Shown piece by piece: positions 1,103-64,000 of a DNA stretch of 64,000 bases. The stretch spans positions 2,981,001-3,045,000 of the forward strand of contig OX419755.1 of the NCBI GenBank assembly GCA_948567375.1, given 5' to 3'. The position numbers and the translations under genes were made by a program. How positions within the stretch are numbered: the stretch's first letter is position 1; each line of letters begins with the position of its first letter. Below the pieces are notes generated by a model, which did not search any database, was not told where the DNA came from, and saw only the letters and a program-made list of their open reading frames with translations. The stretch is from Lunularia cruciata. Lineage: Eukaryota; Streptophyta; Marchantiopsida; Lunulariales; Lunulariaceae.

Positions 1103-1189
1103 AAACACCTTCTCCTTCAAGGAAGGCCTTCTATTCCATACGACCAAATCTATGTTCTAGCCAAAGGTGATCTTTGACTTATGCGCCTT

Positions 1190-2017: not shown

Positions 2018-2465
2018 TCTCACCTTTGAAGTTGGTGATAAAGTTATGTTATCCTCTAGTAATCTAACCCTCCCTCTTGATACCCAAGTTCATAAACTTT
2101 CCCATAATTGGATAGGACCTTTTGATGTTACCCAAATTGTCTCTCCTGTTGCTTATCGACTTGCATTGCCTTATCATATGTGCATCTATCATGTCTTTCA
2201 TGTTTCCAAGTTGAAACCCTTTGTTCCTAACCCCTCTTCTTTCTCCTCTTGAGTCCAACCTCCTCCTCTCCTTATCCCTATCATCAGGAGTATGCAGTTC
2301 ATTGTATCCTTGCACATCGCCACATCCAATGAGGACGTTGCCACCATACGGAGTACAAGGTACTTTGGAAAGGGTACCCTCTTCATGATGCCATATGGGA
2401 ACCTCTTTCTCACCTCCAAAATGCACAAATGGCCATCCAGGAGTTTGAAGCTTCAATGGCAATGA
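1968..2465 (+). pseudogene. A1 integrase C-terminus and chromodomain
   Basis: 1968-2252 reads as the SH3-like integrase tail: a GDKVMLSSSNL strand, WIGPFDV, and the HVFHVSKLKPF block that normally ends Gypsy integrase. In another frame from about 2288, a chromodomain is visible: a hydrophobic start, then EYKVLWKGYPLHDAIWEP and a final helix (QMAIQEFEASM). The aromatic cage is partly kept (Y, W, W). In chromoviruses this domain targets insertion to heterochromatin. A stop at about 2324 (CAATGA context) interrupts it. Confidence 0.85.
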
Positions 2466-2480
2466 GGACGTCACCAACTA

Positions 2481-2494
2481 GCGGTGGGGGAATA
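2481..2494 (+). other. Polypurine tract of A1
   Basis: The run GCGGTGGGGGAATA lies directly before the TG start of the 3' LTR, the expected place for the plus-strand primer. The A2 copy has the equivalent tract on the minus strand at 48163-48176. Confidence 0.7.
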
Positions 2495-2581
2495 TGTAAC
2501 AATATGGAGTTTAGCGACATAGTTAGTAAGGCTAACAAAGTAGAGAATAAGCCAAATTAGCCTAAAATATTCCAAAAGCAT

Positions 2582-2779
2582 CTAAGAAGCTTCTTAGGAA
2601 GCTTCTTGACTAGTTAACTTGCACTCCAAGTAGGTAGCTTCTAGAAGCTTCTAACTAGTTTAGCTTGCACACCAAGTAGGCGGCTTCTAGAAGGAAGCTT
2701 CTTGAGAAGCTTCCTAGTTAAATTGGCTTGCACTCTAAGAAAGCGGCTCAAGGAAGCTTCTTGAGAAGCTTCTCAAGGG
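2582..2779 (+). promoter_or_regulatory. Heat-shock-element-like GAA/TTC array in the A1 LTR
   Basis: This U3 stretch contains repeated GAAGCTTC and TTCTAGAAGCTTC blocks. TTC-nn-GAA-nn-TTC, the consensus heat-shock element bound by HSF trimers, occurs perfectly near 2638-2652, and further GAAnnTTC pairs lie at about 2586-2612, 2682-2718 and 2748-2772. It ends about 15-20 bp before the TATA box. The same array recurs in the other two family LTRs. Binding by heat-shock factors is inference; the blocks could also be palindromes kept for another reason. Confidence 0.6.
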
Positions 2780-2793
2780 CCTTGTATGCTACC

Positions 2794-2801
2794 TATAAAT
2801 A
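2794..2801 (+). promoter_or_regulatory. TATA box of the A1 LTR
   Basis: TATAAATA lies at the end of U3 just after the GAA/TTC array. The other family LTRs have TATTTATA at about 15803 and TATTTAAA at about 47843 (reading leftward on the minus strand) in the same relative place. Confidence 0.65.
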
Positions 2802-2905
2802 CCAAAGCCAAATTTCATGCTAGTCATTTGGAGTTTTTCCTCATTCAAGTGTCCCAATGTGAGTTTTTATTGTCCTATTTCTCTCCTTGGATTTGGTCTT
2901 TTACA

Positions 2906-3481
2906 TCCATACACTAAACCTTCCTGAAACTCCTTTTTGAGTAAGATAGACTCTTCCTTACCCATTGCTCTTTCAAGTAGACCATCTACTCCTTGGTGAA
3001 AAAGAATATCCTCCACCATTGTGTACGGTCTAGATCTCGGTGGAAGGGCCTTCCTCTTTCTAGCATGCATCCCTTTTGGATAGTTACCTCTTCTCACAAA
3101 ATCCACTATCTCCTTGTACTCTATTGGAATCTCTTGAGTGATTGAGATTGTCATGAGCTTCTCATCCGAGAAGGACTCATCCATTGGCTCATTTCCATCA
3201 TGATCATAGGCCCAAGATAACAAATCTACATTTGCATATTTCTTCCTTGGCCTATCTTCTTCAATGGTGTGGTCATACTCAAACAAGAGTATCATCCACC
3301 TTGCTAGTCTCTCTTCCACATTAGACTTGTTAAAGATGTACTTCAAAGCCTTGTGATCTATGAAAATGGATGATCATGCCTATCTTGGTCTAATTGACTA
3401 AAATTGCATCTTATAGCTACATTAGAAGCATGAGTGTAGAGGATGAAAGGCTTACTCAATCAAGTTTAGCAAGAATTAGAG
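2906..3481 (-). pseudogene. C1 RNase H to integrase linker (decayed)
   Basis: An open stretch down to about 2867 contains the end of RNase H (FNKSNVEERLARWMILLFEY, then the D-L-L-S block) and the linker that leads into the HHCC zinc domain (RPYTMVEDILFHQGVDGLL). It stops at the border with A1. The first part of RNase H between 3347 and 3481 is scrambled by stops. This domain would degrade element RNA after copying. Confidence 0.82.
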
Positions 3482-4530
3482 CTACAACAAGGGATTGGAA
3501 GCCTCCTTGTCCTCTAAAATCACCATGTATTCTACATCCTTCTTCATGGTTAGTGCATAAGCCTTGTTGGAAAATGAGAATATGAACCTCCTATAGTACC
3601 CAACTATCTCCAAGAATTGGTATAACTTTGTCAAGCTTGAAAGGAATGGAAGGTTTGAGATTTTCCTCACCTTCTTGGGATCAATTGCTATTCCATCCTT
3701 GGAGATGATGTGCCCCAAAAGTAGACCTTCTTCACATCCAAAAATGCACTCCTCTAGGTTGAGTGATGCATTTGCCTCATCCAAGGGTTGCAAGTCCTTG
3801 ATTAGATGCTCAAAGTGCTCCTCCTTACTCCCATAGACACAAAAGTCATCAATGAAGTCTCAAAAATTTCCCAATGAAAGGTTCAAATACCTTGTTCATG
3901 AAATGTTGGAATGTGGCTGGAGCATTGCAAAGCTCAAAAGGCATGACCTTGAAAGCGTAAGTTTCCCAAGGTGTGGTGAATGTGGTGAGTTGTTGATGCT
4001 TTGGTGTAATCTTGATTTGGTTATACCCACTATAACCATCTCCAAAACTATACCTCTCATGACCTACAACCTCATCTAAGATCTCATCAATGAATGGAAA
4101 AGGGTAATAGTCCTTCTTAGTAACAACATTGAGCTTCTTGTAATCTACATATACCCAAAGCTTGGCATTCTTTATCTTCATAATCACAATGGGGGACACC
4201 CATTCTATCATTTTTCCACCTCAAAGATAAATGCAGCCTCCTTGAGCTTATCAATCTCCTCCTTCACTACCAAAAGACATTGGTGTGTTAATGTGACATT
4301 GCTTTTGGCGAACTGGTCTTGCATGTGACTCCACCTCAATATTGTGCTCCTCCAAGGTGACTTCTTTTAGATCCTTGTAATTGAAAGCAAATGCATGGAT
4401 GAACTTGCGGAAAATCTCCTCAAATCTCACCTTCTCCTCCTTGGTAACATTTGGACCATACTTGAGAGTAGATAACCTCATTTCTATCTCCACAAGTGTC
4501 AATGGTGATTGATCTAGATCCTTCAAAACC
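3482..4530 (-). pseudogene. C1 reverse transcriptase (decayed)
   Basis: Three open pieces give most of RT: 4526-4251 (pre-RT linker, LKEVTLEEHNIEVES), 4211-3849 (fingers and palm: EWVSPIV, VYVDYKKLN, YSFGDGYSGYNQI, VMPFELCNAPATFQ) and 3793-3482 (thumb: LLLGHIISKDGIAIDPKKV, VGYYRRFI). The YxDD strand falls at the frameshift near 3845 and is not readable as an intact motif. E replaces G in the MPFGL block. The protein is not functional as it stands. Confidence 0.88.
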
Positions 4531-8779: not shown

Positions 8780-9760
8780 TGCCCAACTCAATAGACAAAT
8801 TCTTGACAAATTGAAAGATGTGGTCAATGAGTTCCAAGATGTCTTTTTGGATGAATTACCCATAGGTTTACCACCAAAAAGGAGAATAGATCATAAAATT
8901 GAGATACATCTTAGGAAGACACCTCCTTGTAAGCCTCCATATTAACTATCAACTTATGAGTTGGAGGAGTGTAAGGCTCAAATCAAAGATATGTTGCAGA
9001 AGGGGTTTATCCAACCTAATGTATCACCATATGGGGCTCTTGTATTGTTTGTGAAAAAGAAGGTTGGAACAATATGCATGTGCATTGACTACCAGGGACT
9101 AAATCAACATGCATGTGAAGAATATGCATGTGAAGAAAAAAATATACATTACCTTGCATGGATGACTTTTTTATCAACTCAATGGGGCAAGGCACTTCAC
9201 CAAACTTGATTTGTGGAGCAATTACAACCAAATCAAGATTGCAGAAGAAGACATACACAAAATAGTCTTTCAAACAAGGTATGGTCACTTTGAGTACTTT
9301 GTGATGCCATTTGGCCTCACCAATGCTCCAGCCACTTTCATGAGTTTGATGAATGATATATTTTGTCCGTACTTGGATAAATTTGTTATCATTTTTCTTG
9401 ATGACATCTTAGTCTACAATAGGATACTGACAGAGCACAAGCAACATCTATGAGAAGTCCTCCAGATTTTACAACAGAATCAATTGTATGCCAAAATCTC
9501 AAAGTGCAACTTTGGCAAATTTGAAGTATACTACTTAGGGCATAAAGTAAGTGCAAATAGTATCTAAGGCTTAATAGATAAAGTAGAAGTCATTAAAAAA
9601 TGGAGTGCTCTAGAAGATCAGACTCAACTCAAGAGTTTCTTGGAATTGACGGGGCTTTATCGTCAATTTGTCAAGGACTTCTCTAAGATTGCACAATCTC
9701 TAACAACTCTATTGGGTATGAAGAAGAAATAGATATGGAGAACTACACAAGAATTGGCCT
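8780..9760 (+). pseudogene. D reverse transcriptase (decayed)
   Basis: The order is a pre-RT segment (FQDVFLDELPIGLPPKR), the fingers (8961-9209: LEECKAQIKDML, VSPYGALVLFVKKK, CIDYQGLN), the palm (9211-9453: [27 protein letters not shown], then [10 protein letters not shown] at the catalytic strand) and a thumb with [13 protein letters not shown] blocks near 9540. A stop at about 9451 and a TAA near 9566 interrupt it. A small repeated stretch (HACEEYACEEK near 9105-9140) looks like a local duplication. Confidence 0.88.
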
Positions 9761-9769
9761 TTTAGGAGT

Positions 9770-10200
9770 TGAAAGATGTATTACTACATGCACTAATCTT
9801 GAAATGGTATGATCTAAAACATCCAATCAAGATGGCACATATGCATCAAGTGTAGCAATAGGAGCAATCTTACAACAAGAATGGCAGGATGGATGGCATC
9901 CAATTATGTATTTCTCTTGTAAGTTGCTACCAAAAAAATTCAACTATCATACCCCCAAACAAGAAGAGTTGGCCATTATCCTTGCAACCAAGTACCAGAA
10001 GCACTATCTAGGTGAGAAGGTACTTTTGGTAGAGACAAACCATAAACCTCTAGTCTACCTCAAGACACAAAAAGATCTTTCTCGTTGAAAAATTTGATAG
10101 GCAAAGTGGAGACAACAATTCAACATGAAAATCAGATATGTGGAGGGCAAGAAGCAACTTGCAGATGTATTCATTCATTTGAATAATGATGGCAGACAAT
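9770..10200 (+). pseudogene. D RNase H (decayed)
   Basis: 9906-10088 is open and shows the core helix and strand blocks: KFNYHTPKQEELAII, KHYLGEKVLLVETNHKPLV. The end (YVEGKKQLADVF, corresponding to the usual DALS block) follows near 10135-10170. It joins integrase after a short linker. Confidence 0.82.
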
Positions 10201-10329
10201 TTGGTAGTGGAAATCAAGATAAACCCTAAATTTTGGTCCAAGATTCTTCCTGCAAGAAAAATTGATCCGTAGATTATAGGCGCTCAATCATCCAAAGGCA
10301 TCACCAGCATCCAAGGACTCACCTTCATG

Positions 10330-10700
10330 GCAAGTTGTGGATCCCAGATGATAAAAATTGAGAACCACCATCCTAGCGAAATGTCATGATTTTGCCATTG
10401 CAGGTCATGTTGGAATGGACAAGACCTTGGATGCAGTCAAATGCCATTACTATTGGCCCAAGTTGAGCAACAATGTGATGGAATATGTTTAGAGTTGCCT
10501 ACTTTGTCAACAAAATAAAGCTTCTAATCAAGCTCTCATGTGACTCCTCCAACCTCTTCCCACTCCTACACAATGTTGGGAACAGGTAAGCATGGATCTG
10601 GTTTTTGAATTGCCCAAGACCACCTCTAGGTTTGATTCCATCATAGTCTTTGTCAACCAACTCAAAAAAATGATTCATGTATGTTGTTGTACTTTTCTTT
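10330..10700 (+). pseudogene. D integrase, 5' part (zinc domain, first Asp)
   Basis: The HHCC domain reads across frames near 10385-10510 (CHDFAIAGHVGMDKTL, then CLLCQQNKA). The core begins near 10585 with SMDLVFELPKT, which holds the first catalytic Asp, and continues to about 10690 (FVNQLKKMIHV). After that the integrase sequence is lost until 12871. Confidence 0.8.
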
Positions 10701-39223: not shown

Positions 39224-42203
39224 ATGGAGAATAGTGGAGTACTAGGGCGGAGTAGCTCCAGGAAGCACAGTCGGTCTTCGTCTCAAGTAGACCCCGAGAC
39301 GGAGGTTGAAGGTTCCAGCTTGCACCATGCGGATCCATATTCTTTAAGCAGGAATTCCATGAGTAAGCGTAGCAGTGCGAATTTCAATCCGTCACCGATG
39401 GATCTCATTGCTGCTGGCTGGGACTTGTCAGAAATTCCTACGTACAATTTACACATCAAGAATTTATCTTACAAGGTTGGTGCTATTCTCATTTGATGAA
39501 GTAAAATACCTTTGGAAAACTTCGATGCTTCAATTTTGACGCTCCTGCTTGTCAGTCTAATTATTCTGAGTACAACAACCGTGGACAACTTCAGGAGTTA
39601 CTAGCTGATTGAATTCATTTCGTCTTTAATAGGTGACAGTCAAGAGCAAGGAGGAAGGACCGCATCAAAAGACACTTCTCAATGGCGTTTCGGTAGAAGC
39701 TTTCGCTGGACAGCTTTTGGCAATCGTTGGCCCATCGGGTTCTGGCAAGACCACCTTCTTGGATGCTTTAGCTGGACGCATAGCCCGGGAGAGCTTGGGT
39801 GGTGAAATCTATGTCAATGGGGAGCCTATCGATGATTCCTTTAGGCGCATTTCCGGTTATGTCATGCAAGACGATGCGTTGTTTCCCATGCTCACTGTAC
39901 GAGAGACATTGCTAGTCAGTGCACGACTCAGGCTTCCGGCAGCGATGCCTATGAAAGAAAAAAAAAACCGAGTGGAGAATATGATCGATCAACTTGGTCT
40001 GAGAGGTTGCGCAGAGACACGTGTGGGCAATGAGAAGGTAAGCTTACAAGTCAAGCCAACAGCAAATTATCGTACTTGGAATTCCATCGTGGTTGGAAAT
40101 ACTCTTTCAATTTCATCAACATCTCCTGATCACCTGCAGCAATCAGTTGGAGACGACTAGACATGGTGTATATTGTTGTACATGTTGAATTAAATTGAGC
40201 TGGGTTTTGCGTGGCTTGATGTTTGACTACAGGTCAGAGGAGTATCGGGCGGAGAGAGGCGTCGTGTGTCAATCGGGGCCGATCTTATCCACGATCCTGC
40301 TGTTCTCTTCTTAGACGAGCCAACCTCAGGCCTGGACAGTACATCTGCTCTCAATGTGATGCAAGTCTTGTCAAATATGGCGAAGTCCGGAGGGCGGACT
40401 GTGGTTCTTACTATTCATCAGCCGAGTTTTAGAATTTTGGAGACCATCGATCGGGTCGTCGTGCTTGGGAAGGGGAATCTCCTTTACGAAGGCCCTCTTA
40501 GCCAATTAAAGCGCTACTTCGGTCCTTTAGGCAAGTCCATGCCAGAAGATGTAAGCCTCTCACTTTCTCCTACATGTTTAGCAATCTTGAGTAGAGCACT
40601 CTGCTGACATTTGCGTTATCGATGTGTTTGGTGCTAATGATGTTGGTTCCAATCGCAGGTAAATGTGTTGGAATTCGCTCTTGACGTTATTGAAGACTGT
40701 CAGAAGTCACCAGAGGGCCTGCAACCACTGATTACTCTTCAGGTATGACTTACTTGTTGAGGGAATCCAATACAGTAAATTATCTGCAAGAAGCTAAGCC
40801 AATTCACTGCTTTCTTATGGATGAATGTGAGGATACCGAAATTTACACGAACATTCCTCATTGTTCTTTAGGATGAAGATAATCCTCGATACATGAAACC
40901 TAATATACTTAGGAAGCGTAGAACCGTTGTTTACGAGACACCTTCTGTGCAGGCTGAGACTCAAAAGCAGGAAGTTGAGAAAGGAGATAAACGGAAGAAG
41001 GCGGACGGGAAAGCCTTTACTGACTCGAACTCATATCCAGAGTATGCGACGTCTTTTCTAGCACAATGCCTTATTCTGTCCGGACGTAATTTTCGGAACA
41101 TTCTTCGGACGCCTGAGCTTTTCGTCTCACGTGTGATGGCAATGGTACGCCCAGAACTGTACGACCTTGTCTCCGACTCCAGTTTCTGTCTCCAACTAAA
41201 TGGAATGTCTGTCAATGTAATAGGATCTTAGATATATAGAGCACGAAGGACCCCGTGTATTTGCCTCTGAACTGGGTCTGAGCTCAAAACATTTGGCTAT
41301 TTGTCACAGGCAATGGTGGCGGTGACCATGGGAACCTTATTTCTGAATTGCGGGGTGAGTGAAAAGGGCCAGAGACAAAGAACTTCGTTCATCTCATTCA
41401 CACTGGCTCTTTTGATTTTCTGGTCCATGGAAGCCATGGCCGCCTTCATTGAAGAACGTCAAATATTCGTTCGAGAAACGTCTCGTGGGGCGTATCGTAT
41501 AGGAGCGTTTGTCGTGGCAAAGGATGTTGTCATGCTTCCTGTGCTGCTATTCCTCGCAACCATCTTTTCAGCTATTTCGTACTTCCTCGTGGGTTTAGTA
41601 CCGGAAGCTGGGCCATTCTTCTTCTTCACCTTCGTCTGCTTCTTGGTTCTCTGCACAGCTTATGCTTATGTGTCTTTCGTTAGCAGTTTAGTGCCAAATT
41701 TCGCCGTCGGCAATTCAATCTGCAGCACCACGATCTCATATATGTTTCTGTTCTCAGGATTTTTCATCCAAAGGTACGATCCAGTTGCAACGCTTCATAC
41801 TTGAAGTTTTGATACATACTTGCAGTTTATTTGTCTTGAAAAGCCCCAGGTTGTGAATTCACTTCTCAGGGACTGGAGGTTGCTTCATTATTGAATACTA
41901 ACCTCTAGTCTACAATTTATGTGTTCTTCCAGGACGGCTATTCCTAAGTACTGGATTTGGCTCCACTACATCTCCTTATTCAAGTACCCATATGAGCTGC
42001 TGCTGAACAATGAGTTTGGTTCAAAGTACTTCGAGGGCAGGATTTGGTATAACGACGTGGACTCGAACACAATTCTCTCGAATCTGTCAGCGGGGAAAGT
42101 GCACCCGTGGGTGAACATTCTTGCCATGCTTGGACTTTTCTTTGGCTACAGAATCTTCTTCTGGATTTCACTATCTTACTTCACCAAGAGCGTACGAAAA
42201 TAG
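39224..42203 (+). CDS. ABCG (WBC) half-size ABC transporter, 7 exons, 688 aa
   Basis: Exons: 39224-39475, 39633-40037, 40233-40550, 40659-40742, 40872-41144, 41310-41773, 41933-42203. All introns are GT-AG and the joined frame is open. The start is in a strong context (GAAGCCATGG). Order: nucleotide-binding domain, then membrane domain, the reverse order typical of ABCG. Walker A GPSGSGKT (about 117-124), signature VSGGERRR (223-230), Walker B VLFLDEP with D and E at 247-248, and H-loop His at 281 are intact. Hydrophobic helices follow in exons 5-7. The sequence is closest in feel to the plant clade of ABCG1/2/6/16/20, plasma-membrane exporters of suberin, cutin or pollen-wall lipids that act as dimers. 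The substrate here is inference. It is the only intact gene in the window. Confidence 0.96.
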
Positions 42204-49840: not shown

Positions 49841-51050
49841 GGACCAGGAGAGGAATTTTTGAAATGTGAGGGGAGTCTTGCAGGGCTTAAGGATTTTGGA
49901 TGTGCCTTAGGCTGTGCTTGGACCAGGAGAGGAATTTTCAAAATGTGAGAGGAGTCGTGCAGGGCTGAAGGATTTTGGAGATGCCTTAGGGCTGTGTTTT
50001 GGACCAGGAGAGGAATTTTTGAAATGTGAGGGGAGTCTTGCAGGGCTGAAGGCTTTTGGAGATGCCTTGGGGCTATGCTTGGACCAGGAGAGGAATTTTC
50101 AAAATGTGAGGGGAGTCTTGCAGGGCTGAAGGATTTTGGAGATGCCTTAGGGCTGTGTTTTGGACCAAGAGAGGAATTTTTGAACTGTTAGGGGAGTCTT
50201 GCAAGGCTGAAGGATTTTGGAGATGCCTTAGGGCTGTGTTTTGGACCACAGGAGGAATTTTCGAAATGTGAGTGGAGTCTTGCAGGGCTGAAGGCTTTTG
50301 GAGATGCCTTAGGGCTGTGCTTGGACCAGGAGAGGAATTTTCGAAATGTGAGGGGAGTCTTGCAAGGCTGAAGGCTTTTGGAGATGCCTTAGGGCTGTGC
50401 TTGGACCAGGAGAGGAATTTTTGAAATGTGAGGGGAGTCTTGTAGGGCTGAAGGATTTTGGAGATGCCTTAGGGCTGTGTTTTGGACCAGGAGAGGAATT
50501 TTCGAAATGTGAGGGGAGTCTTGCAAGGCTGAAGGCTTTTGGAGATGCCTTGGGGCTATGCTTGGACCAGGAGAGGAATTTTTGAAATGTGAGGGGAGTC
50601 TTGCAGGGCTGAAGGATTTTTGAGATGCCTTAGGGCTGTGTTTTGGACCAGGAGAGGAATTTTCGAAATGTGAGGGGAGTCTTGTAGGGCTGAAGGATTT
50701 TGGAGATGCCTTAGGGCTGTGTTTTGGACCAGGGGAGGAATTTTCGAAATGTGAGGGGAGTCTTGCAGGGCTGAAGGATTTTGGAGATGCCTTGGGGCTG
50801 TGCTTGGACCAGGAGAGGAATTTTTGAAATGTGAGGGGAGTCTTGCAGGGCTGAAGGCTTTTGGAGATGCCTTAGGGCTGTGCTTGGACCAGGAGAGGAA
50901 TTTTTGAAATGTGAGGGGAGTCTTGCAGGGCTAAAGGCTTTTGGAGATGCCTTGGGGCTATGCTTGGACCAGGGTGAATTTTTGAAGTTGCAAGAGAGTC
51001 TTAGGGCTGAAAGATTTTTGAAATGCTGTAGGATGTGCTTGGACCAGGGG
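49841..51050 (+). repeat. 81-bp tandem array in the left arm of E
   Basis: About 15 units, each beginning GGACCAGGAGAGGAATTTT and spaced 79-81 bp, then degenerate units to about 51050. 81 is a multiple of three, so long frames cross it on both strands; these are not evidence of coding. Confidence 0.92.
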
Positions 51051-52140
51051 AAGGATTTTTGAGATGCCTGAGGTCTGAGATAGGACAAGTGGGGTGAATT
51101 TTCAAAGTTTGCAGGAGAGTGTTGAGGGCTGAAAGATTTTTGAAATGCTGTAGGCAGTGCTTGAAAGTGCAGGGGAGAAAAAGGGCTTTCTCTCAAAGGA
51201 ATGAACAATGTGCAGGAGAGGAAGTGCTTGGACAGAAGAGAAATTTTTGCAAGTCTGAAGGGGTTGGGCAGAAGTTGAAGAGAACAAAATTTTGCAAGGA
51301 AGCAAGAGGACAGGAGATTCAGACAGTAGAGAATTTTTGCAGGTTTGAAGGGGATTTGCTGCATAAGTTGCCAAAGGATATCTCCCGAAGTCAGGAAGAA
51401 GAGGAGGAGAATTTTGAAGTGGATCAGCTCATCTGGAGCAAGGGCAAGAAGGTATTTAAAGTTGGTTGGCCTGTCTGAATGGATTGAATCTGATCTGCAA
51501 AACAAGGCATAGGAGAATGAAGAGGTTCGGAGGGTGAGTTGCCTTGTCTGCTGTCGGACAGAGTATATGTGAAGTGCCGGCTGAGTTGATGAGCAGTTGC
51601 AACCTTAGAGAAGGCATTGCCTTGACTAGAACTATTTGACTTATCCAACCTTGTGAACTTTGTTGTTGAAATTCTTGTGAATAATGAGTCTTGGAAGCGG
51701 ATTTGTGTTATGAATTGTGACTAGAGTTGAGGAAAACTCCATTCTAGGAGCTCTCAGTCCGGTCTAGGTGAATAGCATAATTAAATGATCTGGGTGCCCG
51801 GGTTTATGTTTTGTTAGATCACTCAGTTGTCATTTATTTTATTTATTTTATTTTATCAAAGGGCCACCTGACCTAGGTCTATGAACTGCCAGATCCCGAA
51901 CCATAGCTTGAACCTGACGTGAAAATAGAATATGAGACCAGGCAGAGGTAGAAACCATAACACCTGACTCGCATGACAAGATTAGTTTTGCAAAAGTCAA
52001 GGATAAAACAAAACCTTCAAGGGGAGCCAACCTCAAGGAAACTGAAACAACAAGTTCATATAGAGACAAATTCCAGACAATCCAGGAGTAGGGAAGGAAT
52101 GTCAGTCTACGAGAAAATCCAACAGAAAGACAGTAAGGAA

Positions 52141-52261: not shown

Positions 52262-53679
52262 GCGATTGGTGTCAATGACTTGAGTCTTCTTGAGGTTTGT
52301 CATTCTCTTCCTTTCTCAGTATGGATGGCAGCTCTTCCTAATAGGTCAGGTTGTTCTAATTGTCCCCAGGGTAGGTTTCTCCCAAGGTTTGTATGTTGGA
52401 TATTGTAGCCTAAAGTTGATCTATAGCATTCAATTGTGTTTGACTATGTTTGGCCTTGTAGCTCTACTCCTATATAGTATCGCTTCCAGTTCTCTTTTAT
52501 GTTCAGGTTGGTGGGTTTGGCTCTTGGCTCAGACAGATTCCTAAAATGGCTCTGGTGAGACTTTATGAAATAACCGCAAGCAACTAATGGTGGTCAAACC
52601 CGACTGTATTGATCACTAAACTGTGCAATCATATAGATTGGACCACGAGCTCCTAAATGCAGCCCTTCCCTTGACAACATCCATAATTCAGAGTACATTT
52701 ATCCATTCATGAATCATCCTCTTCAACCAGTCATACAGTTGTTAGTCAAACAAGACAAACAATTCTTCCCTATGGAGTGTCCATTCCTACTTTATCACCT
52801 GGGCAACCGAGACATTCCAGCTGAGCATCCAAACTCACCCAATCACATGCAAACAATCTTCTCAACTCTTTCTCTTTTATCAAACTGTCACTCACCGCTC
52901 AGCATTTGAAGCCTTTCCTTCTCTTCTCTCTGCCTGTCACTTCAGCATCAGACCTCCAAATCTCCTTTGAAAAAATGCCCTCTCTATCTTCTGCCCAGCA
53001 TCAGCCATTCCCCAACCTTTGAGAACTGCTATGTTGTCTCCAGCTCTCTTGGTCCTCACTATAAAGCTCAAAAATTCCTCTCTGTCTGTCTCTCGTAGTT
53101 CACTCTCAAATCTTCACAACTAAATTCTGAAACTCCTCTTTCCTGTCTCTCTTGGTACACTCTCAAACCTTCACAAAAAACTCGAGAGTTTCTCCTGGGT
53201 GTCTCCTGATCAGTCACAACTCTTCCTTCGAAGCACAGTCCTTGTCCTGTACAATCCTATCCTCTCAAAGTTCATCTCATTCTCTCCTGACTAAACTTGT
53301 GAAACCCAAACTCCTTTCCCTCTGTCCTAGTGCAAAATCTCTCAAAATTTCCTTCACTTCTCACTTCTCTGTCCAGCTCCTGTACAGCCAGGTCTCTTCC
53401 TTCAAAATTTCTCCTTTTCAGCCCTTCTCTTAATGTCCTTCCTTTCAATTTCCTCTGCTCATACTCTCTGGCTTCTGTACAGCCAGGTCTATTGTCCAAC
53501 TCAAAATTTCACTCCTCCCCTCCTTCATTCATGCGGGAAACTTATTTGCCTTCTCTCCGGCTCAGACCTCCTGTCCAACTCGAAAATTCACTCCTCCTGT
53601 CCAAGCTTGCACTCCTTCATTCCTCTCCTTTTCTTGTCCAAACCCCTCTAGAGTTTCTTCTCTCTCTCTTCAGGCCTTT

Positions 53680-54460
53680 ACATTCCTGTGAAAATTTGCC
53701 TTCCTGTTGTCCTCACAAAACCCCTCACATACATGCAAAAATTGTCTTCCTGCACCCTCACCAAACCACTTCACATTCCTGCAAAATTTTCTTCTTGCAG
53801 CCCTCACAAAAACCCCTTCACAGTCCTGCAAAAATTGCCTTCCTACACCCTCACCAAACCACTTCACATTCCTGCAAAATTTGTCTTCCTGCAGCCCTCA
53901 CAAAACCCTTCACAGTCTTGCAAAAATTGTCTTCCTGCAGCCTCACCAAACCCTTCACAGTCCTGCAAAAATTGTCTTCCTGCAGCCTCACCAAACCACT
54001 TCACATTGCTGCAAAAATTGTCTTCCTGCAGCCATCACAAACCCCTTCACAGCCCTGCAAAAATTGTCTTCCTGCAGCCTCACCAAACCACTTCACATTG
54101 CTGCAAAAATTGTCTTCTTACAGCCCTCACAAACCCCTTCACATTCCTGCAAAAATTTGCCTTCTTGTTGTCCTCACAAAACCCCTCACATTCATGCAAA
54201 AATTGTCTTCCTGCACCCTCACCAAACCACTTCACATTCCTGCAAAATTTTTCTTCTTGCAGCCCTCACAAAAACCCCTTCACAGTCCTGCAAAAATTGC
54301 CTTCCTACACCCTCACCAAACCACTTCACATTCCTGCAAAAATTGTCTCCCTGTAGCCCTCACAAACCCACTTCACATTCCAACAAAAATTATCTTCCTG
54401 CAGCCTTCACAAACCCCTTCACAGTCCTGCAAAAATTCCCCTTCTTGCAGTCCTCACAAT
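53680..54460 (-). repeat. Tandem array in the right arm of E (about 45-58 bp units)
   Basis: About 14-16 units with the core TTCCTGCAAAAATTGTCTTC and CCTCACCAAACCACTTCACA. The complement resembles parts of the left-arm unit (GGAATTTTTG...AATGTGAGGGG), so both arrays may derive from one ancestral arm sequence and expanded separately. Confidence 0.85.
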
Positions 54461-55679: not shown

Positions 55680-56600
55680 AAGTGGATGGAACGGCGAGTG
55701 GTTGAAGGAGTCCACTCGGCTTCTAATTGCTGGCCTTGTTACGTTGGCAACTCTCACACAATTGGACAAATTCTCAAACATCTCATGTCATGTTGGGCTA
55801 CCACCATTGACGTTCAAGGGTATTCAAGGTCTTGTCCACACCCATGTGACCAGCAATGGGTAAATCATGGGCTTCTTGAAGGCACACAAGTCAAAGATCA
55901 CCTTTAGCTAGAACATAGATCCGATCCTCATGAAATAAAAGGCCCTCCTTGATGGAGAAGGTGTTGCACTCTTTATTGCATGCCATAAGGCGACCTGTAC
56001 CAGAATGGATCTTGGTGTAAAGCTGATTGAAACTTGTTTTGGACCTTGGGGTAGACTGACACTATTGAAATTGTTGTTGTGATGAGAGGAAGAGACTTCA
56101 AATTGAATCAAGGATGACATGGAACCGACCTGGTTTGTACTCAAGTTTGATGTCATACAGTTGGAGTTGTTCCTCACATCAATGATGTTGACTCTTCATG
56201 TGTTCCAAGTGTAAGGTCTGCAACAATGGTTTGTGATCAGTTTGCATGATCACTTGTTTCCCCAAGAGGTAATGCCTCCATACCTTGGTGGCATATACCA
56301 TTGCAAGTTGTTCTTGATCTCAAGTAGAGTAGTTTCATTTAGCCGTATTGAGTTGGTGAGACACAAAGGCAATGGGATGGAATCCATCTAGGAATTCGTG
56401 TTGCAGCACAACTCCAATTAGAAACTGCACTCCAAAGTTAGAAGCATCAAAATCAACCACACAGGGTAGTTGAGGATCATATGGTTGAAGAATGGGTCTT
56501 GAAGATACCATATGCTTTAAATTCTAGAATGCTTCTTCCATCTTGGTGGTCCACTGGAAGCTCAAGTTCTTTCCCAAGAGATCAGTCAATGGTGCAGCCA
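55680..56600 (-). pseudogene. A2 RNase H and integrase zinc domain (decayed)
   Basis: The HHCC zinc domain is readable near 55900-55740 (GHMGVDKTL, NCVRVANVTRPAI-like frames). RNase H lies at about 56560-55960, with QTDHKPLLQTLHLEHMKS near 56250-56200 and the closing part in 56177-55908. Stops and frameshifts are frequent. It aligns with A1 541-1420. Confidence 0.8.
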
Positions 56601-57342
56601 CATGAGCATAATAATGGATGAATCATTGGTAAAAATTGGCCAATCCATTGAATGCCCATACTTATATAGCATCCTTTGGAGTAGGCCAATCAGTAATGGC
56701 CTTGATTTTCTCTTCTTCCATCTTGATCCCCTCTGATGAGATCTTATGACCAAAGAAAGTAACCTCCTTCTGCCAAAAGGCACACTTTGAATTCTTGCAA
56801 TAACATTTCCATTGTCGTAGGTGTCTTAGGACTTCTTGCACATGATTCACGTGTTTTGCCTCTGTCTTACTATAAATTAAGATATCATCCAAGAACACCA
56901 CCAAGGACCAATCCAATAGTCCATCCAACACCCGATGCATCTGATCCATGAAGATAGCTAGAGCATTAGTGAGTCCAAAAGGTAGAACTCTCTACTCAAA
57001 ATGCTCATACCTTGTACAAAAGGTAGTCTTTTGCACATCTTCTCTATCAATAGGAATTTGCCAATAGCCGCTGCAAAGATCCAACTTAGAAAAGTAGCAT
57101 GCTCCACTTAGTTGATCAAGCAAGTCATCGATCCAAGCCAAGAGTATACATTCTTCATGGTTTGCTTATTGAGCCCACGATAATCAATACAAAAACAAAG
57201 TCCTCCATCCTTCTTTGGAACAAATAGTACCGGTGCTCCCCAAGGAGAGGTACTATGTTGTATGAAGTCCTTCTCCAACAACTCTGTAAGTGTTGTTTGC
57301 AACTCCTCCAACTCCTTTGGTGAGAGCCAATAGATTGGTCTA
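56601..57342 (-). pseudogene. A2 reverse transcriptase
   Basis: 57311-57108 encodes the fingers ([40 protein letters not shown]). 56949-56662 encodes the catalytic strand and thumb (VVFLDDILIYSKTE, VTFFGHKISSEGIKMEEEKI). A frameshift separates them near 57100-56955. The left border of F at 57343 cuts the upstream part, just before the [15 protein letters not shown] segment. Confidence 0.9.
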
Positions 57343-58004
57343 TGTCGTGCGTATATACATTGCTACACAACATACATCACTGTCAACATCATACACTATA
57401 GAAGCACAACTCACACATAAGTTCTACATAGACTCTAAAGTGCCACAATAATCAGATTGCTTAACACTCTCAACTCAACTCAACTCAGATCAATACTTGA
57501 TCTGTCACTCTATAAACTGCCAACAACTAGGCACTGATTACAGTCAAGCCACACCCACTCAAGCATAGAGAATCTAGGTGATGCTCGGCGGTCTCTGTCC
57601 ACCATAGCCAAGAACTCAAAGGCTCAACATCAAAGAAGTGAGCTCTCTGGAGCTCACTTCAAAACTATACCCCTTAGACTCGAGCTAGCTCTGAAACCCT
57701 AATGGTCCCGCTGACGGCACACTCGACGGTGAAAACGGTGCAAAGTGATGGTGGGTACCACCGTGAAGTCAGTACCCCGAACACAAAATCTAACCGTTGG
57801 AAAGTAGTCGTTGAGAAACTGCTGAAATAACTCTAACTACTATCACTGGAACTCTAGTGTCAGAGCATCTAGATGCGGCACTACAAATGGCATGATAGCT
57901 ATTGTGCGTATATACATCGCTACACAACATACATTGCTGTCAACATCATACACTATAGAAGCACAACTCACACATAAGTCATACATAGACTCTAAAGTGC
58001 CACA
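57343..58004 (-). repeat. F LTR region with about 103-bp direct repeats at both ends
   Basis: 57343-57447 and 57903-58004 are near-identical (TGTCGTGCGTATATAC / TGTGCGTATATAC ... AAAGTGCCACA), each TG...CA. The 455 bp between have no coding. The right copy follows the F polypurine tract, the left copy abuts A2. Either the F LTR is 662 bp with duplicated ends, or the F LTR is about 103 bp and a collapsed unit (LTR-remnant-LTR) is present. Confidence 0.7.
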
Positions 58005-58018
58005 ATTGCCCCCTAGCT
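58005..58018 (-). other. Polypurine tract of F
   Basis: On the minus strand AGCTAGGGGGCAAT directly precedes the TGTGGCAC start of the LTR. Confidence 0.6.
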
Positions 58019-58178
58019 GGCGGTTAGGTCCCTCTAACTCCAGATAGCCATCTACTCTAAGTATATGGTATACCCTCTAATGGGCAAAGATCAGGAGGCC
58101 GGGTGCTATGGAGCCCCATCGTTAGTCGCCTGTCTGCAATCTATACCATATAAAGAATGAACTAGCTATAGGTCATGT

Positions 58179-58400
58179 ACATCTAGGATATAACTACTGT
58201 CCTTGAGGAACCATCGTGAGGCAAGGAGTCATACATACCATATGCCATCCTCTTGAACAACTATCACACACTAACATAGTAGCAGCTCCACCAGAAGAGC
58301 CACATAACATACACCTCAAGCCTACACGTACAAGTGCCAAGCTTGGGTCCATAGTACCATCAATGTTTGGAAGGTGGCATGGCGCACAATTGCGCACATG
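58179..58400 (-). pseudogene. F PHD-type zinc finger at the end of integrase
   Basis: The open piece 58397-58194 reads NCAPCHLPNID, then CMLCGSSGGAATMLVCDSC, RGWHMVC and PQGQ, and continues past a stop as LYPRC. That is C-x2-C, C-x2-C, H-x2-C and a final pair of which one Cys is Tyr, with the usual Trp before it replaced by TAG. This is the C4HC3 PHD finger layout. PHD fingers commonly read histone H3 tail marks. It sits where chromoviruses carry a chromodomain. Both defects are single G-to-A type changes. Confidence 0.78.
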
Positions 58401-58870
58401 ATCCTTCTAAACAACACCATCATGTCCTTCTAACACAAGGACTCCAGATGGCAAAACCTCGCACACTCTTAAGATAGTGCGGCCTATAGAAACATCAAGT
58501 GTTGTCGGTGTTGTCTGTTGTAGATATACATAGTCGCTTGGATCAATTGACGGATCAAGGGTCTATAACCTCCTCCTCAAATGGTAGCATAGCATAAAGT
58601 ATCTCTATGTTGAGCAATCGCCAAGTTCTCAAAGGCCATCGGCATCACCCTCCGAAAGATCTCTGCCCACTGAGAACATGCGCTCATCCATACATCGAGG
58701 TCATTCAAGTCCAAAACTACAGTAGCATATCGACGAATGGCTGCAAGTAAATCTGGATCTTGTCCATAGAGTAGAAAGTATGGAAAGAAGGATGCTAAGG
58801 AGGCTTGCCGGCTGAACCGATAGCCCATGGCCAACCAAGGTAATTGAGATCCCAATCTCCCAAGTGGCCT
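58401..58870 (-). pseudogene. F integrase C-terminal domain (decayed)
   Basis: 58855-58577 includes the last core helices (SFFPYFLLYGQDPDL). Then in another frame DYVYLQQTTPTTLDV, GRTILRVCEVLPSGVLVLEG, the SH3-like barrel region, leads in frame to the PHD finger except for one TAG near 58405. Confidence 0.78.
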
Positions 58871-59490
58871 CTCTACAAACCATACTTTTGCAATCCTCTC
58901 TTCACTGTCTGAACCACTCTCTCTGCTAAGCCATCTGCCTCAGGGTGATCTCGGGATGTAGTACAATGATCAATCAAAGCCTTGTCACACAAGACTTAGA
59001 ACTCCCCCAAGAACTCTGTACCCTGATCAGTCAAAACCTCAATTGGTGCACCAAAATGACTAAGAACTTGATCTAGGAACGAGTAAGCTATCCCTTCACT
59101 AGACTTGTCAAGAAGTGCCACCAACTCAATCCACTTGGAGAAGTGCTCCACCATCACCAAAACATACCGATGATGTCTCATAGTCAGTGGTAAAGGTCCA
59201 ACAAAGTCAAAACTCTAATGGTAACCCAATCCCATGATAGGTAGTGGGTGTAACTATGGCGTAGGAGCATTGAATGATGCTCTAACTTGGTCACAAACCA
59301 CACATCTGGCAACAAACTGTTGTACCTCGGTCTGCATATCGTGCCACCAATAATGACTCTGGAGTAAGCTATATGTATGTTTTACTCCAAAATGTCCTAG
59401 CTCCTCATGAGCATGACGGACCAATTGTGGTCTCTGTGATGGAAGTGGTACTACTCGCACTCTACCATCCTCCCATACATGCAAAAGGTG
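58871..59490 (-). pseudogene. F integrase zinc domain and DDE core
   Basis: 59484-59254 holds the HHCC domain (HAHEELGHFGVKHTYSLL, CVVCDQ). The core has D in SFDFVGPLPL (about 59207), D in LTDQGTEFLGEF (59030-58996) and E in HPEADGLAERVVQ (about 58945-58905). 59181-58996 is open. Three or four TAG/TGA stops interrupt it. It would insert F cDNA; target choice might be guided by the PHD finger. Confidence 0.87.
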
Positions 59491-59613
59491 TCAACCTTCC
59501 AATCTGAACCATCTGGCTTGCTGAAGAACACGGTCTCTCTCCTTGGTCCCAACTGTGCCACCCACAACACCAGTGCAAAGATAGTCCATCACTAAGACAT
59601 CATCATGAATGTT

Positions 59614-60642
59614 TCACTGAACTGTACCAATATCTTCACTCTCTGGATCTGTGACCTCAATAACTCCTCTTGTATGCGCTGAGAGAGATACCACCAAAGC
59701 CTCTACAAATATACATAGAAAGGCCGATGCATGCCAACCTGGCACCATCTCCTCATCTGTCTTACCATGCCAACGTGCTCCGGTCTGATCCTGCTGGCTG
59801 GGACATGGGTTTCTACTCAACCCATCTGCATCACGGTTCACCACTCTAGGTCTATGAACAACCGTGAAATCATACTCTTGTAAAATTAGAGCCCATCGTG
59901 CAAGCTTCCTTGAAAGCTTGTCGGACTCCATCAACCACTTTAGCGGCTGATGATCAGTGATGAGAGTGAAGGGGTTACCAAATAGGTAACATCGGAAATG
60001 TGCTACTGCCCAAACTACTGCCAAGCACTCTCCCTCATATGAACTATACTTTGCCTCCGCTGAATTGTTGGAGCAACTAGCATAGGCCACCACAAACTCC
60101 TTCTCCTCATCATCATGTTGGGTGAGCACTGCTCCAAGCCCCAACATACTCCAATCAGTGTGAACCTGAAATGGTACTCCCCTGATCGGTCTCCTCAAAA
60201 TAGGAGCAGATGTCAACCTCTCCTTGAGCTCTACAAAAGCTCTCTCCTGCTCATCTCCCCAACACCACTCCTGTGTAAGCTTGGTCAGCTTCGTCAAGGC
60301 CTTGGCAATGGCACTAAATCCTCTAACATAGCGGCAATAGAAGTTTGCCAACCCAAGGAATGCTCGCACTCTGCTCACATCCGTAGGCCGAGGAATACGT
60401 GCAATAGCTTCCACCTTGGTTTGCTGAACACCAAGTCCTCCAGGGTAGATAGTGTGACCCAAATGCTCAACCTGCTTGTGGAAGAACCTACACTTCCCAG
60501 GATGTAATTTGAGTCCATGAGATCCCAACCTCTCAAACACCTCCAACAACTGTCTCTCATGCTCCTCCATAGTAGTGCTATAAACCAAAATGTCATCAAT
60601 ATAGCACCGAGCAAAATCCAATCCAGCTAGGATCCTATCCAT
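59614..60642 (-). pseudogene. F reverse transcriptase C-terminal half and RNase H (open, 343 codons)
   Basis: One uninterrupted frame with the catalytic strand ARCYIDDILVYSTTMEEHER (YIDD at about residues 14-17), the thumb (VEHLGHTIYPGGLGVQQTKV, GLANFYCRYVRGFS) and a full RNase H: FQVHTDWSMLGLGAVLTQ, KYSSYEGECLAVVWAV, LITDHQPLKWL and the RDADGLSR end. The RNase H acidic residues (D, E, D, D) are present. Upstream it is separated from the rest of RT by a single TAG at about 60649, in a place where CAG (Gln) is usual. Confidence 0.93.
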
Positions 60643-60648
60643 GACCCT

Positions 60649-61353
60649 CTAGAACTCAGCAGGAGCGTTCTTTAACCCAAATGATAAGAACCTCCACTTA
60701 TATAACACATCCTTGCCGTGAGGATCAATAGCCCAAAATGTTGTCTTGGACTTATCCTCCTCCCTGATCGGCAACTGATGATATCCCGCTCGAAGATCCC
60801 AAGTACTGAAGACCTTTGCATGCCCAATCGCATACCGACCAGCCCTGGTCTGTCGGTTGATAGAATGGTAATCTCCACACATCCGCCTATTTGTATAGTT
60901 GCCATGCATATCCTTCTTGGCTGGCATCATTGTCGCTGATGCATACTCTCCATGTGAAATCTCCACCAAACCAGCCTCAAAAAGGTCACTACTCCGGCTC
61001 TGAATTAATGTCCTCTCCATATCACTATATCGATAAGGACGTCGGAAAACTGGTGTGTCGCTAGTCAGCTCAATCCGTATACTAGGTCCCTTCATAGCAC
61101 CCAAATCCTTCATATTGAAGGCAAAACAACTCGTGTGACTCCTCAAGAACCTCCAAACCCTCCATCTTTCCTCTCTTGTAAGCTTGGGTCCAAGATCTGG
61201 CTCCCAAGTATCCTTTGTAACTGTAGTAGGAGTGGAAGACGTACTGACTGACTGTTGCACTAGGCCCTTGGGAGCAATAGTGTCATGCTCCCGACCACTA
61301 GAGGTCCCAACCTCTGTGTGAAAAACTCCCTCCACTCTGGCTGCAAGCTCCAC
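60649..61353 (-). pseudogene. F reverse transcriptase N-terminal half
   Basis: An open stretch with a pre-RT linker (LTREERWRVWRFLRSHTSCF, AFNMKDLGAMKGPSIRIEL), the fingers (DLFEAGLVEISHGEYASATM, MCGDYHSINRQT) and the palm (FSTWDLRAGYHQLPIREEDK, KWRFLSFGLKNAPAEF). F replaces the usual P in the MPFGL-type block. Apart from one stop it is continuous with the downstream YIDD half, so F RT is nearly whole. Confidence 0.92.
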
Positions 61354-61506
61354 ACGTCCTCTAGCTACATCCCATGTGGACCAAGGGTGTAATCCAAGTA
61401 GCCCACGCTCACCTGGATGGACTCCAAGTAGACCACTCTCCCTAGTAGCTACTGGATGTGTCCCAAGAATAACATGTCCACTCGGTCCATCGCCCCCAAC
61501 ATGTGC
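61354..61506 (-). other. Linker between DNMT and RT of F
   Basis: About 50 codons, Gly/His/Pro-rich with repeated LLGVHPG/LLGLHP units; no domain. It may contain the boundary at which the methyltransferase was joined to pol. Confidence 0.5.
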
Positions 61507-62690
61507 CTAAATCGTCTCAATAGGCAGAGGGCTCACAAGTGTCCGAGTGGTGATGCCTATCAAGCACATCCTACGCTGCTTTGCCAAGCCAAGGCTCACA
61601 ATCCAGGTCAAACAGTTCAGGTCCATAGCTTGACCTAACACCTGATGCCTGGATGCCTCTGACATTGCTGGAACAGCAATAATACCGGTGGAAAAACCCA
61701 TCGCCCGCTCTCTCTCATCAGCGTTGGGCTCCACCAACTACTGTAACTGTGAGTCCCAAACTAGTCCAGGTCCTCCCTCTCAAAAAGCATGAGAGCTTGT
61801 GAAACTTATGAGTGTGGGAAGTGCGACTCTAGGCTGTCCAACTAGGTTCACCACTGCCATAGGTGACCTATCAGCCACTAGCACTATTTGAGACTACCAC
61901 CCAACATTCAAGTATCATCAACAAGAATGTGGTCTAGCCGCTGAATCCCATCATAAGCACGCTGTAGAACCTCTCTAGGTAAGAGGTTCATCCACCAAAG
62001 ACAAAGAGAATGAGCCCGTGATCCCACTCTAGCTGCATCTAATAATACAGCAGGTCCCATCCAAGAATGGACCTGATGTGTACTCACCACCACTCTAGTG
62101 CAGAATCACCCATCAAAAGAACATTCTCCAAAAGGTAAGCTAGAGAAACAAACTGATGATCATGCAAATGTCGTAGTATTTGTAACATCTCCCAAAACAC
62201 ACCAGAATGAGGATCCTGAAGACCCAATCCTCTACCAGCACGTGTATGTCCCTGACATGGCCATCCAAAAATCACCAAGTGAATAGGCCCATGTCTCTCT
62301 AGGTCATGCATCCCTAGTAAGGAAATGTCTCCTGGTAGGGCCTTTTGGTAACCTCTGACTGCTGACATCAGTAATAAACCCTGATACCAATAGGCCAAGT
62401 GTGCCACATGATATAGAGAGACTTGCCTAATAGTCTCATCTCTCTCTACATACAAGTACCTCTGTACTTGTATACCTGCCTGTAACACCGCAGCTAGTCC
62501 GGTGCTGATCCTACCAAACAGCTCCAATAGACATATCCCCTCTACTGGATACTGCCAAGCAATGAGTGTGGTATCCAGAGGTGTCAAAGCAATCCCCTCT
62601 GGAGGCTCATCCTCACACTCATCTCCTAATGGTACAAAGGCTCCACTCCAAGCCTGCTGCACCAACTGATTTGCATGCTGCTGCAATGCC
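61507..62690 (-). pseudogene. C5 cytosine DNA methyltransferase domain in element F
   Basis: 62686-62084 has motif I (ICLLELFGRISTGLAAVLQA), motif II (YLYVERDE), motif IV (LVIFGWPCQGHTRAGRGLGL; catalytic Cys at about 62257-62255, intact) with DPHSGVFWEML after it, and motif VI (LLENV, about 62134-62120). After a frameshift near 62090, 62093-61908 has the motif VIII region (LLDAARVGSRAHSLCLWWMN, two Arg lost). 61737-61507 has motifs IX/X (NADERERAMGFSTGI, SEASRHQVLGQAMDLNCLTW). Order and blocks fit a DNMT3-like enzyme that transfers methyl groups from S-adenosylmethionine to cytosine. It lies between protease and RT. Stops at about 61895-61740 and the frameshift inactivate this copy. Confidence 0.9.
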
Positions 62691-63108
62691 TCCTCTTAAC
62701 TCCACAATGGAACATCCAAGGTGGATGGAACAATCCCACTTGTACTCCAAAGCCGAGTGATCTCCGTTGGTACTGGAGTATCCTCTGCATGGGCGTTCCC
62801 CTCCACAAGTTTAGGGTCAAGTCACCAAGCCAAGTAACTGCACCACTGAAAGCTAAAAGTGATGTTGCCATGGTCCCGGACTGTAGTGAGCCAAGACTGC
62901 CACTACTGAAGCGTACTGGTAGGCAACATACCCATCCCTCACCAGACTGCCAACCAGGTCTATAAGAGGCTATCTCCTCCTAATAGTCAATGCTGAAACC
63001 CATGGGATATAACACTGCTCCCCCAACTAGCACATCATATGACTCAACTATCATCGCTATAGCCTGAGCTCTCACCACCAAGCTATCATTCAGATGACCA
63101 GGCTGAAC
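62691..63108 (-). pseudogene. F protease C-terminal region and linker to DNMT
   Basis: Reads VVRAQAIAMIVESYDVLVGG, then AVLYPMGFSIDY, a TAG where TGG is likely, and EEIASYRPGWQSGEG, a conserved-looking retropepsin second half. 62871-62691 continues with MATSLLAFSGAVTWLGDL into the methyltransferase. A few stops. Confidence 0.65.
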
Positions 63109-63540
63109 CTAGACAACAAGCTCTCCACGTGTGATGTACTGTATCGAACAACCACCTAGAGATGTCTGGATCTGAAATGGACACCTCTCCACATCGGTCT
63201 TCCGTAACTCCAAGCCGACCACTGCCGCCTTCTCCAACATAAGGGGCTGCGCACCAGAGTCTAACAAGACTCTTTGTGGTGTATAGACCTTCCTTGAAGG
63301 TCCCACCAAACGGAAAATCCCCCTCTGGTTATCCAATGGGACAATACCAGGTGTGAACCGTGCTCTTTCAAAGGCCGGTCTAGTTGGCAACTCCTCCAGT
63401 CGAGCCACTGCTGCTTGCCATAAACCACTGGTTGTTGAACGGATCCCATGCTCCTCAACCAAGTCAGCTCCACTACCAACCACCTCTGCTCTAGTAGTAG
63501 GAATTGCACCATCCCTACTCTCACACAACGTGGCAGCCAA
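63109..63540 (-). pseudogene. F aspartic protease, active-site half
   Basis: The open stretch contains RVLLDSGAQPLMLEKAAVVG, the D-S-G-A active-site strand of retropepsins, with a preceding hydrophobic strand (GIVPLDNQRGIFRLVG). The frame is shared with the gag end at 63918-63541, separated by one TAG at 63541-63543. Confidence 0.82.
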
Positions 63541-63918
63541 CTAGAATACTGGGGTTGGGTCAACTCCCAATGTAAACATATCACTGGCCAAAAACAAAGG
63601 ACGCCGCATAATCAGGTGAGCCGCCTCCAACATCATGCTAGACTCAGTCTGTGTAGTAGCAAGGGGCTGACTAGCAGGTAGTCCATCATGAACTCCATTA
63701 CCACCTACCACACTTGCACTGGGACGTCTAGGAACCATGGATGTTGTTTGCAATGCCTCAGATAGCATGAAAGACTGCGGAAGTCTAACTTGTCTCCCAA
63801 CCTCTCCTCTTTGTGGGTCCAACTCCACTGATGCTCCTCTAGGCTCTAGAGCACGTACTGCACTCCTAGTCATTGCTGCAGATGCATCCACCTGTGCTAC
63901 TCCGCACATGAAGTCCAA
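63541..63918 (-). pseudogene. F gag C-terminal or gag-protease linker
   Basis: An open frame, Ala/Ser/Arg-rich (RSAVRALEPRGASVELDPQR, LMLEAAHLIMRRPL), without a zinc knuckle in the window. By position it is the end of gag or the gag-protease linker. It continues past the right edge. Confidence 0.55.
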
Positions 63919-64000
63919 AGCATCTCTATCACAAGCATATGAGGTGGAAGCCTCAGCACCCGAATCTGATCTCCTCTAAGCAATAGCCATACTAGCCAAT

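Follow-up and report, generated by a model that had tools for sequence, protein, structure and literature searches.

Retrotransposons that carry a cytosine-5 DNA methyltransferase (DNMT) have been described from the charophyte alga Klebsormidium nitens, as KnitGypsy-Dnmt3, and from dinoflagellates, as SymbioDIRS-Dnmt3 and SymbioLINE-Dnmt (main text of de Mendoza et al. 2018, PMC5890265). Passages of PMC12344493 report some DNMT3 members embedded in long terminal repeat (LTR) Copia and DIRS elements in streptophytes and dinoflagellates, and passages of PMC6338049 describe such elements as absent from land plants, such as tracheophytes, and name green algae among the carriers of DAM or DCM elements. 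The titles and abstract openings found named no DNMT-carrying retroelement in bryophytes, a scope that left most subscription journals and supplements outside. Here we describe a copy of a Ty3/gypsy-like retrotransposon with a DNMT3-class domain on the minus strand of a 64,000-nucleotide stretch of the liverwort Lunularia cruciata (assembly GCA_948567375.1, contig OX419755.1, positions 2,981,001 to 3,045,000 of the forward strand), hereafter the window. A published L. cruciata assembly is given as 580 Mb, with bursts of Ty3/gypsy elements, in passages of PMC9985172. The original prediction, made from the letters of the window, was that a land-plant Ty3/Gypsy element carries a DNMT3-like domain; at the level of sequence the existence of such a family is confirmed by phmmer, Pfam and further copies.

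In the window itself, the minus-strand frame at 62084-62695, which spans motifs I to VI, matched DNMT3A (phmmer against PDB sequences, E 8.8e-5). The Pfam C5 methylase model that had been suggested as a check on this translation did match, with PF00145 scoring 23.2 bits, barely above its cut-off of 22. The match is not due to chance, because a better copy in the same genome matched DNMT3A at E 2.4e-7 and a profile built from six relatives reached DNMT3 at 2.5e-17, against 1.3e-5 at best for the RNA enzyme DNMT2. The nearest solved structures were, in order, DNMT3A/B, DRM2 and HhaI. Motifs I, II, IV (PC), VI (ENV), VIII (RxR), IX and X follow one another in the better copies, with no DRM rearrangement. 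The ordered motifs originally read in the window are therefore present in the family, although in the window copy the later ones are legible only across frame changes.

The genome searched comprised 566 Mb in 74 contigs. A Pfam search for the domain returned 123 matches, which is the number scored of 2161 candidates and includes a few host genes; many sit within long open reading frames (ORFs) of up to 1428 residues. We retrieved 18 element loci, each 9.9 kb in length and picked in most cases for the long frames around the DNMT, which biases the set to good copies. ORF1 (up to 1428 residues) encodes a gag, in which two motifs resemble zinc knuckles, and an aspartic protease, each recognised by eye (Pfam support for gag was weak, 0.07), followed by the DNMT. 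ORF2 (1037 residues where open) encodes, by Pfam, a reverse transcriptase (RT), RNase H, H2C2 and rve integrase domains and a C-terminal PHD finger, the last matching PF00628 at E 7.4e-10 and 2.2e-10 on better copies. The order of gag and protease, then RT-RNase H ahead of the rve integrase, agrees with that of Ty3/gypsy elements. In all 18 loci the stop is a UAG in a constant position; the next codon is CAG and the one after it fits CARYYA, the context of the leaky stop in tobacco mosaic virus. In loci whose ORF2 is open as far as its start, this frame resumes in the same register past the UAG. Since the stop stands after the DNMT in ORF1, the domain lies on the Gag side of it; the stop may be leaky, readthrough being predicted from the context.

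A sample independent of the DNMT was drawn from the RT matches (89 scored of 53979 candidates), taking the 20 copies after locus L013, which are the best-scoring RTs and hence close relatives of L013. Every one of them carries the DNMT in place at the expected distance, with 91-99% identity, so that the search for copies lacking the domain, which had been named as the way to refute the prediction, found none here. WPCQ was recognised in 19 of the 20 and ENV likewise in 19, and six had a stop within the piece.

Relatives extend well beyond Lunularia. Among 8000 proteins scored, 52 were returned as relatives, including Marchantia polymorpha ORFs, one Sphagnum fallax record and proteins of other contigs. 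The Marchantia ORF P0002 is 68% identical to the element in gag, 56% in protease and 75% in DNMT, and the corresponding values for seven ENA proteins are 23-31%, 34-40% and 50-53%. One relative, P0014, gave a weak Asp_protease_2 match (22.7 bits, cut-off 24.3). A second search used as its query P0025, which itself carries a DNMT, and is biased accordingly; among the best 120 of its 224 matches were proteins of Haematococcus lacustris, Chlamydomonas eustigma, Chromochloris (label Chrzof1) and Cymbomonas tetramitiformis. The profile built here found a DNMT in 105 of the 109 proteins newly listed in that set; of the four without it, P0283 has no RT match either. Precomputed Pfam annotation places PF00145 on only some of the same 120. 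The name of K. nitens was absent among the matches listed (52 proteins; best 120 of 794; best 120 of 224), most of which carry no species name. In a motif survey of 150 rows with a near-complete domain, drawn from 157 proteins with a DNMT match, the catalytic Cys was present in 147 (the other three being gaps), the Glu of ENV in all 150, the two Arg residues of motif VIII in 146 and 149, and D or E in motif II in 149.

A tail of 200-300 residues after the PHD finger is conserved in P0025, P0029, P0183, P0187, P0217 and P0047, and 62 of 124 PHD-bearing proteins match that of P0025. From motifs seen by eye (DPWAGTGT and a TSPWF-like word) this algal tail is perhaps amino-methyltransferase-like; Pfam gave only D12 at 0.012, on one of two tails, and solved structures gave nothing below E 0.5.

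In the 952 columns common to three ORF1s, the Sphagnum fallax protein P0024 (BDL97_09G086500) has 65.9% identity with Marchantia P0002 and 59.3% with the Lunularia element, those two being 61.1% identical to each other. Among the matches listed, the host DNMT3 of Lunularia has 52-61% identity with MpDNMT3a/b and 47-50% with the DNMT3s of Sphagnum. This single record suggests either horizontal transfer between bryophytes or old co-existing subfamilies.

The DNMT tree, built with a quick search, took in 80 hand-picked rows, made up of 35 of the 52 relatives and the element's own copy, 29 proteins from the host search and the own host gene, and 14 others. The 36 retroelement DNMTs formed one clade (support 100) on a long stem, and the 30 plant host DNMT3 rows a separate clade (support 100). 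The retroelement clade stands beside the plant rows joined by one animal DNMT3 (31 rows, support 83), while support at the deepest fork is weak (15) and a number of long branches were flagged. The phylogeny that the original prediction had called for thus separates the retroelement domains from host plant DNMT3s, with a weak root and in a tree drawn without CMT, MET1, DRM and the named chlorophyte proteins. Host DNMT3 exons occur in the same genome (L001, and L004 by eye), and inside the liverwort DNMT3s the L001 gene clusters (support 99) with MpDNMT3b, one protein of Marchantia paleacea and two of Riccia. In a midpoint-rooted RT tree of 34 rows, again chosen by hand and containing no DNMT-free gypsy outgroup, the seven elements with a DNMT before the RT fell on one side of a branch (100/98). 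Three rows without a DNMT clustered within the others (99/99), a position that fits loss, and the placement of P0047 differs between the two trees. The simplest reading of these trees would be one ancient capture of a DNMT followed by at least one change of position; that the capture is old is argued from the spread over green algae and bryophytes.

The copy in the window has the following features, all on the minus strand:

57343..64000, and on to G000:C1:3048174 (9.83 kb in total), minus: element copy, complete but decayed, from BLAST against other copies, its 5' end read in locus L043
62950..63270 (limits approximate), minus: aspartic protease region, end of the gag-protease part, from LLDSGAQPLML by eye and tblastn register to ORF1 of L010
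61540..62545 (approximate), minus: DNMT3-class C5-methyltransferase domain, broken by frame changes and stops, extent mapped from a better copy
61255..61257, minus: ORF1/ORF2 stop site, at which this copy reads CAA instead of UAG
59817..60957 (limits approximate), minus: reverse transcriptase and RNase H, from Pfam RVT_1 and RT_RNaseH and register to better copies
58690..59457 (limits approximate), minus: integrase, H2C2 zinc finger and rve core, from register to ORF2 of L013 and Pfam on better copies
58176..58310 (limits approximate), minus: PHD finger at the extreme C-terminus of ORF2, from register and Pfam on better copies
57904..58006, minus: repeat B1, from comparison with other copies
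57449..57897, minus: repeat A2, its partner A1 lying outside the window, in L043
57343..57449, minus: repeat B2, the 3' end of the element, ending CGACA, from comparison with other copies
57339..57342, minus: 4-bp target site duplication TAGA, its partner directly upstream of A1 in L043

The predicted order of protease, DNMT and RT is borne out by Pfam and by register to better copies, and the limits first given for the domain, 61507..62690, were right to within about 150 bases. This copy is old: its A1 and A2 are 92.4% identical and it has accumulated stops and frame changes, with 10 stops in one frame of 61507-62083 (the frame past 62084 being interrupted) and three in the DNMT domain when aligned in register to another copy. 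ORF1 of the element has no further match elsewhere within the window. Other gypsy-like fragments, 27-37% identical to ORF2 of the element and with Pfam support for two, lie at 1-4457, 9166-10687 and 56128-57341, the last directly adjoining the DNMT element. The window also contains an ABC transporter gene at 39633-41804, with open frames bearing ABC_tran and ABC2_membrane domains, and tandem arrays at 49841-51066 (units of about 80 bases) and 53676-54459 (about 46 bases), in which there are long open frames in several phases that need not be genes.

The repeats are arranged in the order A1 (449)-body-B1 (107)-GC-A2-B2, and all four pieces were found in 15 of the 18 loci; L016, L017 and L026 have only partial repeats, and A1 is seen in part in L010 and where a locus starts inside it. 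The two bases between B1 and A2 are mostly GC, with GT or AC in some. Because this arrangement holds no pair of identical terminal LTRs, we call the element Ty3/gypsy-like with split repeats. A perfect 4-bp target duplication lies outside A1 and B2 in 13 of 15 copies (not in L012 or L021), as well as in the window copy. Together with the rve integrase in ORF2 it distinguishes the element from the DIRS type, which has a tyrosine recombinase and makes no duplication. Across the genome, the junction of A1 with the downstream sequence gave 2231 matches and the B-GC-A junction 1171 (at most one mismatch, none in controls), which are counts of junctions and not of complete elements. Divergence between A1 and A2 was 0-8% in 15 copies, and 139 of the 160 differences were transitions. 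Per site they were most frequent at CG (56 on 36 sites), followed by CHG (44 on 52) and CHH (39 on 135), and this CG-biased decay fits what is expected for methylated DNA.

Some of these features bear on how the element copies itself. In the three copies inspected for it, a guanine-rich tract stands ahead of B1. A 13-mer that follows A1 (15 of 18 loci) exactly matches the reverse complement of another within A (17 of 18), and a TATA-like word lies some 30 bases ahead of it. The 13-mer pair is no more than suggestive of Tf1-like self-priming. Reverse transcription would yield ordinary ends with an LTR' of B-GC-A, and the DNA would be inserted after its ends had been joined and reopened at the CA-GC-TG beside A1. 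One model was rejected in the form stated: if a two-repeat circle opened at random at one or the other of its B-GC-A sites, about half of the insertions should have the order A-B-GC-A-body-B. The listing of exact B-GC-A matches over the first 40.6 Mb of contig C1 has 41 entries, of which 26 were canonical, defined by a junction like a primer-binding site (PBS) 8.5-9.2 kb upstream, none was alternative and 15 were neither within the distances set, one of these having its junction 7.9 kb upstream. Given no alternative against 26 canonical orders, the joined-end model is incomplete.

The best explanation of the whole, which we hold with evenly divided confidence, is that a high-copy element carries its DNMT in the Gag-protease polyprotein before a leaky-context UAG and methylates its own cDNA before insertion; we infer that self-methylation of cDNA is the most likely role of the domain. 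Because the DNMT precedes the stop, it is expected to be made at Gag levels and packaged. Enclosed in the particle, it would methylate, most likely at CG, the element's own cDNA or circular DNA. The PHD-bearing integrase would then insert pre-methylated DNA, and the new copy would arrive already marked, blending with methylated chromatin and limiting damage to the host. The DNMT of a DIRS-type retroelement methylates CG in yeast (main text of PMC5890265). The original prediction had further proposed that such an element might time its own silencing or mark insertion sites.

Several observations weigh against self-methylation. KnitGypsy-Dnmt3 gave no methylation in yeast, a result its authors called inconclusive (main text of PMC5890265), and the CG-biased decay of the repeats does not tell which enzyme set the marks. 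Contrary to expectation, the Pro of PCQ is Glu in 82 of the 150 retroelement rows, with the Cys kept. A stop lies within the DNMT in 11 of 23 copies, the other 12 having none. The ratio of nonsynonymous to synonymous polymorphism in the genome is 0.41 for the DNMT, against 0.24 for gag, 0.41 for protease, 0.28 for RT, 0.55 for integrase, 0.41 for the PHD finger and 0.68 for the linker. Restricted to shared variants and without the window copy, it is 0.11 for gag, 0.37 for protease, 0.20 for RT, 0.51 for integrase and 0.71 for the linker (with only three variants the PHD value is unusable). The shared-variant value for the DNMT is 0.43, a constraint weaker than in gag or RT and stronger than in integrase or linker. 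Constraint within the genome is modest, and deep conservation is the stronger argument.

The weak constraint relative to gag and RT would also suit a domain that no longer methylates DNA and has been retained to bind nucleic acid, to serve a structural purpose or to methylate RNA, and the main text of PMC5890265 reports no activity for the charophyte counterpart. However, the catalytic residues are kept across large divergence and the profile is far nearer to DNMT3 than to DNMT2, and we consider such a loss quite unlikely. An active enzyme might instead have its main target elsewhere, in host DNA or in competing elements, or act as a late self-silencing switch that spares the host an excess of copies. 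Expression at Gag levels could free the enzyme, and the published discussion allows for effects on the host methylome (PMC5890265, main text); on the other hand, the position in the polyprotein between protease and stop would favour packaging, and in the copies read the domain forms part of ORF1 with no separate ORF. We regard a main target elsewhere as improbable without being negligible. The broken state of the window copy is what might be expected of a host fragment nested there by chance, or of a one-off capture in a dead copy. The presence of the DNMT in place in every RT-chosen copy rules out the chance fragment, and the many copies, the relatives in other species and the separation of the retroelement DNMTs in the tree from host DNMT3s leave this reading with virtually no probability.

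Self-methylation of cDNA could form part of a wider history, which we propose tentatively and think on the whole unlikely. One ancient retroelement clade of the green lineage would have made DNA methylation a step of its life cycle, the DNMT being captured once before the RT lineage split and kept in two positions. It would be made at Gag level in bryophytes, would have gained the company of a second methyltransferase-like domain in algae, and would work alongside an integrase whose PHD finger reads histones. The elements would copy as ordinary LTR elements, insert from a circle cut at the internal CA-GC-TG, and have crossed between mosses and liverworts. Retroelement self-methylation is directly testable in Marchantia, a genetic model in which related ORFs are annotated.

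The stop after the DNMT, the PHD finger of the integrase, the A-B-A-B repeats and the green-algal relatives go beyond the original prediction, and the repeats combined with target duplications raise the question of how the element replicates and inserts. What had been reported from a charophyte alga and from dinoflagellates is now seen in liverworts, at high copy in Lunularia, and in one moss record. New here are the land plants, the breadth among chlorophytes, the position of the domain ahead of a stop that may be leaky, and target duplications in an element whose repeats are DIRS-like; the chlorophyte cases may be partly known, since PMC6338049, in the passages cited above, names green algae as carriers. 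Host plant DNMT3s (MpDNMT3a/b; L001 and, by eye, L004) share the DNMT3-class catalytic domain with PCQ, but are split into exons and form their own clade. The green-algal polyproteins have homologous RT, integrase, PHD and DNMT domains; members from other contigs fall in the retroelement DNMT clade, and those of Haematococcus, Chlamydomonas and Cymbomonas were placed in the RT tree. They differ in the order RT-RNase H-DNMT-integrase-PHD, with the DNMT between RNase H and integrase, and many bear the extra tail domain absent from the Lunularia element. According to the main text of PMC5890265, the dinoflagellate elements likewise combine a retroelement with a C5-methyltransferase, with A-B-A-B repeats in the DIRS type, but use tyrosine recombinase or LINE machinery where the Lunularia element has an rve integrase. 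The closest counterpart on that text is KnitGypsy-Dnmt3, whose copies are under purifying selection and which shares with the Lunularia element the Gypsy domains, a DNMT3-class domain in the polyprotein and the DIRS-like A-body-B-A-B repeat order. The main text uses neither PHD nor gag as a word. The charophyte element is described with its DNMT in the Pol ORF, whereas that of the liverwort has it in the gag-protease ORF before the stop, and shows 4-bp target duplications and a PHD finger that ends the integrase.
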